The notes beneath the pieces are model-generated. The model did no database searches. It saw nothing but the letters and a program-made list of their open reading frames with translations, and was not told the DNA's origin. A stretch of DNA of 64,000 bases. It comes from a candidate division WOR-3 bacterium (GTDB lineage: Bacteria > Hydrothermota > UBA3072). The stretch spans positions 45,956-109,955 of the forward strand of contig JBDRZZ010000004.1 of NCBI GenBank assembly GCA_039804165.1. Direction: 5' to 3'. Shown here piece by piece: positions 46,460 through 47,543 of this stretch (position 1 is the stretch's first letter; every line of letters starts with the position of its first letter). Position numbers and translations under genes: made by a program.

Positions 46460-46487
46460 TTGACAGTAAATTAAAAGAGTTTATATT
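46460..46487 (+). promoter_or_regulatory. Promoter of the inverted-repeat-flanked secreted-protein gene
   Basis: TTGACA at 46460-46465, a 16-bp spacer and TATATT at 46482-46487, the same arrangement as the proB promoter. A hairpin (GGGGGTT/AATCCCC, 46441-46459) lies directly before the -35. The left inverted-repeat arm is just below the expected transcript start. Confidence 0.6.
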
Positions 46488-46502
46488 ATAAAAAGAGTTT
46501 TT

Positions 46503-46571
46503 ATGAGTAAGGAGATAAAATTGAAGAATCGTCAAAATATTAGGTTAAACCAAAAAGGAGGTGAAGCGTGA
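46503..46571 (+). CDS. Possible 22-codon leader ORF
   Basis: An ATG at 46503 opens a 22-codon frame that crosses the left inverted-repeat arm and stops at TGA (46569-46571), overlapping the GTG start of the next gene (GTGA). It could couple translation to the gene, or it may be chance. No Shine-Dalgarno is clear before the ATG. Confidence 0.25.
   Translation: MSKEIKLKNRQNIRLNQKGGEA
46519..46546 (+). repeat. Left arm of a 28-bp perfect inverted repeat
   Basis: This 28-bp sequence is the exact reverse complement of 47483-47510. The arms enclose one gene and its ribosome site; the left arm lies between the promoter and the Shine-Dalgarno. The match stops sharply on both sides (A versus G before it, A versus T after it). 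Confidence 0.95.
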
Positions 46572-47461
46572 AGAAATTCTTGGTGTTATTCTTGGCTTTT
46601 GTGCTTCTTGTGCTTCCTGCTCTTGCAGTCACAGTAGACTTTGAAGATAGGGAGATAGACTCCGAGAACATTAGACCTTTTGCCAAATATAGACTCTGGA
46701 AAGATAGAGCTATTCCAGCCCCTAAGGTTATAGGAAGTGAGCAAGGACTTCCGGTTCGCCATGGAACAAGGGGACTTTTACTCCCACTTGTTGATACTTC
46801 TGGCTTATTAACAACTACATCGAGATGGCTCCTTATTGCAAAAGATTCTGCAAGAGGTGGAGGACCTACTCAGAACGCTTTTGACCAAGAAATCTGCAAT
46901 AGCTTACAATTCGGTGATACATTATGGTATTATCTATATGTCCCAAGTAGCGCTGTTCAAAAGGTAGATTCTATTGTAATTTTTGAGAGAGACTCTGACT
47001 GGACTCACGACCTTTACACAATTTATCATATTCAGGATCTTACTCCAGATGCATGGAATGAGCTAATATCAACTGTTTCAGAGACCAATTATAAGGGCGA
47101 AGCTCTACAACTCCGCTTTATTCAGACAGACTTTGAAATTTATTCTGATTCAAGTTACTTAAACCCAGCTTGTTCACTCTATTTTGACTACTTCTCTACA
47201 GATGGACCATATGGCATTTTAATAAAAGATAAAAATGGAATAAAGCTTGAAGCTTTAATCAACAAGATAAAAATTTCTTCGGAAAAATCGGCTCTTGCAA
47301 TGGTTTCTGTTTACGGAGTGGATGGAAGTAAGAAGATGGATTTACCAATAATGATTCCGAACGAAGTTGAACTTACTGATTTACCAGCCGGTGTATACTT
47401 TGTTAGAGTTGTCTCGGGCCCTGGCTCTGCCCAGATAACAAAGCTTTTAGTTGTTAAGTAA
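46568..47461 (+). CDS. Secreted protein with T9SS-type C-terminal sorting domain
   Basis: The gene starts with GTG, preceded by AAAAAGGAGGTG. The 297-residue protein has a signal peptide (MKKFLVLFLAFVLLVLPALA). Its middle (about 20-220) is a beta-rich domain opening VTVDFEDRE, which looks like a jelly-roll, perhaps carbohydrate-binding. The last 70 residues resemble the type A sorting domain: VSVYGVDGSKKM, LPAGVYFVRVV and a Lys-ending LLVVK. It should be exported and attached to the cell surface. It stands alone, between its own promoter and a strong terminator, and inside a 28-bp inverted repeat. Confidence 0.82.
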   Translation: MKKFLVLFLAFVLLVLPALAVTVDFEDREIDSENIRPFAKYRLWKDRAIPAPKVIGSEQGLPVRHGTRGLLLPLVDTSGLLTTTSRWLLIAKDSARGGGPTQNAFDQEICNSLQFGDTLWYYLYVPSSAVQKVDSIVIFERDSDWTHDLYTIYHIQDLTPDAWNELISTVSETNYKGEALQLRFIQTDFEIYSDSSYLNPACSLYFDYFSTDGPYGILIKDKNGIKLEALINKIKISSEKSALAMVSVYGVDGSKKMDLPIMIPNEVELTDLPAGVYFVRVVSGPGSAQITKLLVVK

Positions 47462-47482
47462 AAAGAGGGGGATAGGACCCTA

Positions 47483-47510
47483 AACCTAATATTTTGACGA
47501 TTCTTCAATT
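47483..47510 (-). repeat. Right arm of the 28-bp perfect inverted repeat
   Basis: This is the exact reverse complement of 46519-46546. It lies 22 bp after the stop of the secreted-protein gene and 2 bp before the terminator hairpin, so it is inside the 3' untranslated region of the mRNA. Confidence 0.95.
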
Positions 47511-47512
47511 CT

Positions 47513-47543
47513 AAAAAGAGGAAAAAATTCCTCTTTTTTATTT
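47513..47543 (+). terminator. Terminator of the inverted-repeat-flanked gene
   Basis: AAAAAGAGGAA at 47513-47523 pairs perfectly (11 bp) with TTCCTCTTTTT at 47528-47538 across an AAAA loop and runs into TATTT. It is directly after the right repeat arm. Confidence 0.85.

Follow-up and report, generated by a model that had tools for sequence, protein, structure and literature searches.

Inverted repeats around a secreted-protein gene of a candidate division WOR-3 bacterium are predicted to form a stem closing its mRNA

One review names only three interactions between the 5' and 3' UTRs of bacterial mRNAs, with short pairing in each (PMC7821165). The members of this class compared here are hbs, icaR and RNAIII. 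In the Bacillus subtilis hbs mRNA, as that review summarizes it, the 5' UTR pairs over 14 nt with the 3' UTR and is thereby protected from RNase Y (Braun et al. 2017, via PMC7821165). In the Staphylococcus aureus icaR mRNA, a 7-nt motif covers the Shine-Dalgarno sequence and creates an RNase III site (PMC3868564). Here we describe a gene enclosed by much longer inverted repeats in a 64,000-nucleotide stretch of DNA (the window) from a candidate division WOR-3 bacterium. The parts of the locus are as follows.

46460 to 46489, plus strand: candidate sigma-70-like promoter, TTGACA, 16 or 18 nt, then TATATT/TATTAT (consensus scan, 11 of 12 matches)
46503 to 46571, plus strand: candidate upstream ORF of 22 codons, MSKEIKLKNRQNIRLNQKGGEA (read from the sequence)
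46519 to 46546, plus strand: 5' arm of the predicted closing stem (exact inverted repeat; its only matches in the genome are to its partner)
46555 to 46561, plus strand: Shine-Dalgarno sequence AAGGAGG, outside the stem (read from the sequence)
46568 to 47461, plus strand: secreted-protein gene, 297 aa, with a T9SS type A sorting domain (ORF; TIGR04183 at aa 235-295)
47483 to 47510, plus strand: 3' arm of the predicted closing stem (exact reverse complement of the 5' arm; +22 to +49 nt from the stop codon)
about 47513 to 47540, plus strand: putative terminator hairpin, AAAAAGAGGAA-AAAA-TTCCTCTTTTT, with a T-rich tail (sequence and predicted fold)

The initial annotation had described two 28-bp arms that were exact reverse complements and enclosed one T9SS-type gene, with a promoter outside the left arm, a terminator outside the right arm and no transposase gene fragment in either. 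This description held throughout. The arms match at 28 of 28 positions, or at 97% when extended to 31 nt, and are separated by a spacer of 936 nt. In the protein encoded by the enclosed ORF, a signal peptide is accompanied by a C-terminal domain for type IX secretion, the TIGR04183 match (23.1 bits) lying just over the cut-off of 23; the N-terminal part of the protein is genus-restricted, and a structure prediction was poor (pLDDT 46.6) and was left unused. The promoter was called from its match to the consensus alone, which is not proof of a promoter. The terminator hairpin has 11 bp and begins 2 nt past the right arm; it is predicted by the fold, though a simple terminator scan did not list it. 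The surroundings of the arms showed no transposase fragment. Further copies of the 28-bp sequence, a check that the annotation had proposed, were sought in the organism's own 1.96 Mb genome with up to 3 mismatches allowed, and only the two arms were found; the backwards sequence gave 0 matches and so did shuffles of the window. The 5' arm lies within the candidate upstream ORF, which shares GTGA with the start of the secreted-protein gene. This ORF lacks a clear ribosome site and may be a product of chance; if it were translated, ribosomes would open the stem.

When the predicted window transcript was folded, all 28 of the 28 arm pairs were present in the minimum-energy structure, with a mean pairing probability of 0.98. 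The complementary segments lie between promoter and Shine-Dalgarno sequence on one side and between stop codon and terminator on the other, the transcript ends being predicted. On this layout, the start of transcription would lie shortly before the left arm and its end at the hairpin right after the right arm, which would place both arms in one short mRNA. Pairing of the 28-bp arms would then tie the mRNA ends together, much as 16S and 23S rRNA precursors are closed by their stems. Since the arms lie outside the expected ribosome footprints at the start and stop codons, translation could proceed inside the closed loop, with the stop codon held near the start. The most likely effect would be that both mRNA ends are shielded from exonucleases and from end-dependent endonucleases. 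The arms are thus probably the two strands of an RNA closing stem, and the stem most likely stabilises the mRNA, a prediction that we draw from sequence. As in hbs, so far as the review describes it, the 5' and 3' UTRs of one mRNA are predicted to pair, and end protection in the manner of hbs would be the natural reading of the window stem. The hbs pairing differs in extent: it covers 14 nt, whereas the stems described here and below, predicted from sequence, have 24-28 bp, occur at several unrelated genes and have a common geometry.

The duplex could instead be imagined to repress or destroy the mRNA, either because the ribosome site is hidden or because an RNase III substrate is made, and the pairing of icaR 5' and 3' UTRs does act in this way (PMC3868564). 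The initial annotation had likewise suggested that the duplex might occlude the ribosome site region. That suggestion was not borne out, as the 5' arm ends at 46546, 8 nt before the Shine-Dalgarno sequence, which is left clear of the stem and is not covered by the 3' UTR. With the Shine-Dalgarno sequence outside the stem, icaR-type repression is not what the layout naturally suggests, and given also that an RNase III gene was not found in the class (see below), we consider it quite improbable.

To place the window stem in its genome, 1.52 Mb (78%) of the genome was taken as stretches, those of this genome (G000) and of a sister genome (G001) being picked first around T9SS genes, and the region before the start of each of 1422 predicted genes was compared with the region after its stop. 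Gene starts in the scans were called by a simple script and transcript ends were predicted. RNA duplex energy was not discriminating as a genome-wide score, because long gapped duplexes swamped the list, and it was replaced by a gapped pairing score. Ungapped complementary flank matches of at least 20 were found at 6 of the 1422 genes, against about 0.13 predicted from swapped 5' and 3' flanks (1 of 11,326); none of the 11,326 swapped flanks scored 22 or more. Three of the six genes have stems of the same secreted-protein type: the window gene (28/28), L099:9007-9336 (26/26) and L102:15772-16482 (23/24). L099:9007-9336 encodes a 109-aa secreted protein downstream of a GH8-T9SS gene, and L102:15772-16482, flanked by an HTH_34 regulator gene on one side and a TonB-receptor-like gene on the other, encodes a 236-aa protein that carries a signal peptide. 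The other three were rejected as stem cases, two (L072 and L145) being REP/RAYT repeats and one (L155) parS-like palindromes. The REP-type repeats, GGGTCAGGTCTTGA and GGGTCAGACCTTGA, form inverted pairs around transposase-like genes resembling RAYT (L145:10954-11878 and L072:4671-5678), and the 22-bp parS-like palindrome, TAATGTTTCACGTGAAACATTA, flanks an rsmG-like gene on both sides (L155:5618-6205). Two further candidates were set aside, L151 for its CTAAATCC repeats and L097 for a match that falls within the coding start and is likely due to chance.

A second scan covered all inverted repeats in the same 1.52 Mb with a score of at least 20 and a gap of about 0.15-6 kb. It gave ten matches, of which five were left after removal of the REP family (L145, L162, L072 and L094) and of parS (L155). 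These five are the window, L099 and L102 stems, the stem of the 23S rRNA (29 bp, L092) and the stem of the 16S rRNA (24 bp, L096). A mirror-repeat control on the same 1.52 Mb gave one score of 20 and none of 22 or more. The mirror-repeat and swapped-flank controls exclude a chance origin of the window inverted repeat. The rRNA stems of this genome, like those predicted for the three genes, are long helices that close one RNA from both sides and fall in the same size class. They differ in enclosing an rRNA rather than a coding gene and in sharing a core sequence absent from the mRNA stems. The 16S (L096:3058-4722, C15) and 23S (L092:5421-8516, C12) rRNA genes are on separate contigs, each with its own stem, and the two stems have TTGATAATTGAATAG in common.

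In the sister genome, G001, 627 genes (755 kb) were put through the gapped scan. The top score among the 627 genes, 20.9, went to L105:8070-8981 (the same gene as L008), a homolog of the window gene; the next score was 15.5, and against controls the stem had a P of about 0.0003. Its 24 pairs, one of them G-U, are interrupted by a 2-nt bulge and are formed by 5'-AAAAGAGAAT--CATCCAACTCAAAA at -43 to -20 with 5'-TTTTGAGTTGGATG-TG-GTTCTCTTTT at +25 to +50. The two proteins are 27% identical and the arms are unrelated, so the pairing layout is the same in the two genomes and the sequences are different.

The position of the arms was similar in each case. Relative to the start codon, the 5' arms lie at -49 to -22 (window), -57 to -32 (L099) and -53 to -30 (L102); relative to the stop, the 3' arms lie at +22 to +49, +18 to +43 and +32 to +55, respectively. 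Across the four loci, all from one genus and the sister genome included, 5' arms fall within -57 to -20 and 3' arms within +18 to +55. The arm sequences are unrelated between loci, the best pairwise score being 6. All four stem-gene proteins look secreted, by a crude signal-peptide test that 18.5% of the genes in this genome and 29% of those in the sister genome also pass. The arm pairing was also predicted by folding at L099 (25 of 26 pairs, mean probability 0.98) and at L105 (14 of 14 core pairs, 0.91). L102, where a local hairpin was preferred and the arm pairing probability was 0.37, is the weakest of the cases. The 5' arm of L102 (16512-16535) includes TATAAT, a possible promoter element, and the inverted copy of this arm after the gene could be an antisense promoter. 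L099 and L102 are probably operon genes, so that each stem there would close off a single cistron within a longer RNA and not tie true mRNA ends.

Similar position with free sequence is the mark of selection on pairing; sites for a recombinase, a transposon or dif would keep their sequence. Unrelated sequences in the same geometry speak against a recombinase site or a mobile element and in favour of pairing of mRNA ends. Of the two readings put forward in the initial annotation, the mRNA panhandle thus gained support, from the same-position stems with unrelated arms at two other genes and at the sister homolog and from the complete fold of the window arms. The other reading, phase variation through an invertible DNA segment, is disfavoured. 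It would have a recombinase flip 46547-47482 and so cut the gene off from its promoter, and it draws on the perfect inverted repeat around one surface-type gene, the promoter just outside it and a XerD encoded about 11 kb away in the same window. Invertible elements and dif modules are likewise inverted repeats around a gene, but at this locus there was no shared recombinase site, dif similarity or dedicated invertase. The window arm sequence occurs nowhere else in the genome, and because the arms of the similarly placed stems are unrelated, one recombinase could not recognise all of them. Among the recombinases of the genome, the tyrosine type is represented only by XerC-like and XerD-like proteins and the serine type by a single large protein of the integrase type; the sister-genome stem has a bulge and a wobble pair. 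An invertible switch is therefore very improbable.

The arms might also be traces of a mobile cassette: the ends of an IS or MITE, or a dif module like those of Acinetobacter, in which 28-bp Xer sites are inverted. The arm length of 28 bp is that of a dif site, and the window gene is non-syntenic, other genes preceding proB in the sister genome. There was, however, no target-site duplication and no further copy of the arms in the genome, arm similarity to dif was no better than that of shuffles (P 0.6-0.7), and there was no match among plasmids, phages and viral contigs. Moreover, the arms differ at each locus while their distance from start and stop is always similar. This origin has at best a slight chance of being correct.

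The stems are rare, which would suit a neutral accident, that is, a functionless inverted duplication made by template switching in replication: only 3 of the 1422 genes have one, and most homologs are without it. The full-length family of the window protein has four members, the window protein and L007 in this genome and L004 and L008/L105 in the sister genome; no full-length homolog was found outside these two genomes, and the window protein as query in a genome-contig search gave no match. Two of the four family genes (window and L105/L008) have a stem. The paralog L007 was rejected as a further example because its stem was not significant, and the homolog L004 because its 14-nt match lies inside signal-peptide codons and has a control-level score (P 0.22). 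No clear stem was seen among 16 homologs of the L102 gene scored in other WOR-3 genomes. About 54 other T9SS genes of this genome are without a stem, so it is not a general feature of secretion genes. Against a neutral accident, only 0.7% of random placements put both arms in intergenic DNA with exactly one gene between them, yet 3 of 3 observed stems have this layout, and a homolog in another species has an independent stem. Nor was any equivalent single-gene stem seen among 881 genes (829 kb) from assorted bacteria, in which the strong inverted repeats were interspersed or of low complexity. A neutral accident is accordingly unlikely, and a closing stem in the mRNA continues to be the reading that we favour. 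We infer that cells do form the stem, that its role is to stabilise the mRNA or favour re-use of ribosomes, and that selection acts on expression of the secreted proteins.

A perfect duplex of 28 bp is normally a substrate of RNase III. Searches for RNase III (TIGR02191 and PF00636) in this genome and nine others of the class (G000-G009), all incomplete MAGs, gave no match. Among 60 sampled relatives, TIGR02191 did match in 23, all of them members of other WOR-3 classes. Because ten incomplete genomes of the class agree, a true absence of RNase III is likely on the sequence evidence, although the class may possess a diverged enzyme. A cleavage site of the icaR type would then be unlikely, and the stems of the 16S and 23S rRNAs must be processed in another way. 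Such RNase III-independent processing may extend to the mRNA stems. In its strongest form, the proposal would be that rRNA-like closing stems on selected secreted-protein mRNAs are handled by the RNase III-independent machinery that matures rRNA, giving long-lived, ribosome-re-using and perhaps covalently circular mRNAs; this we regard as improbable.

In sum, if the reading of the arms as an mRNA closing stem is correct, these genes would have a new bacterial mRNA architecture, a natural closed loop, in which long, near-perfect stems of unrelated sequence enclose single genes, each stem with its arms at comparable positions relative to start and stop. The setting, with RNase III not found and rRNA processing stems kept, raises the question of how a cell without RNase III deals with long double-stranded RNA, and a second question, whether bacterial transcripts are stabilised when their ends are tied together.
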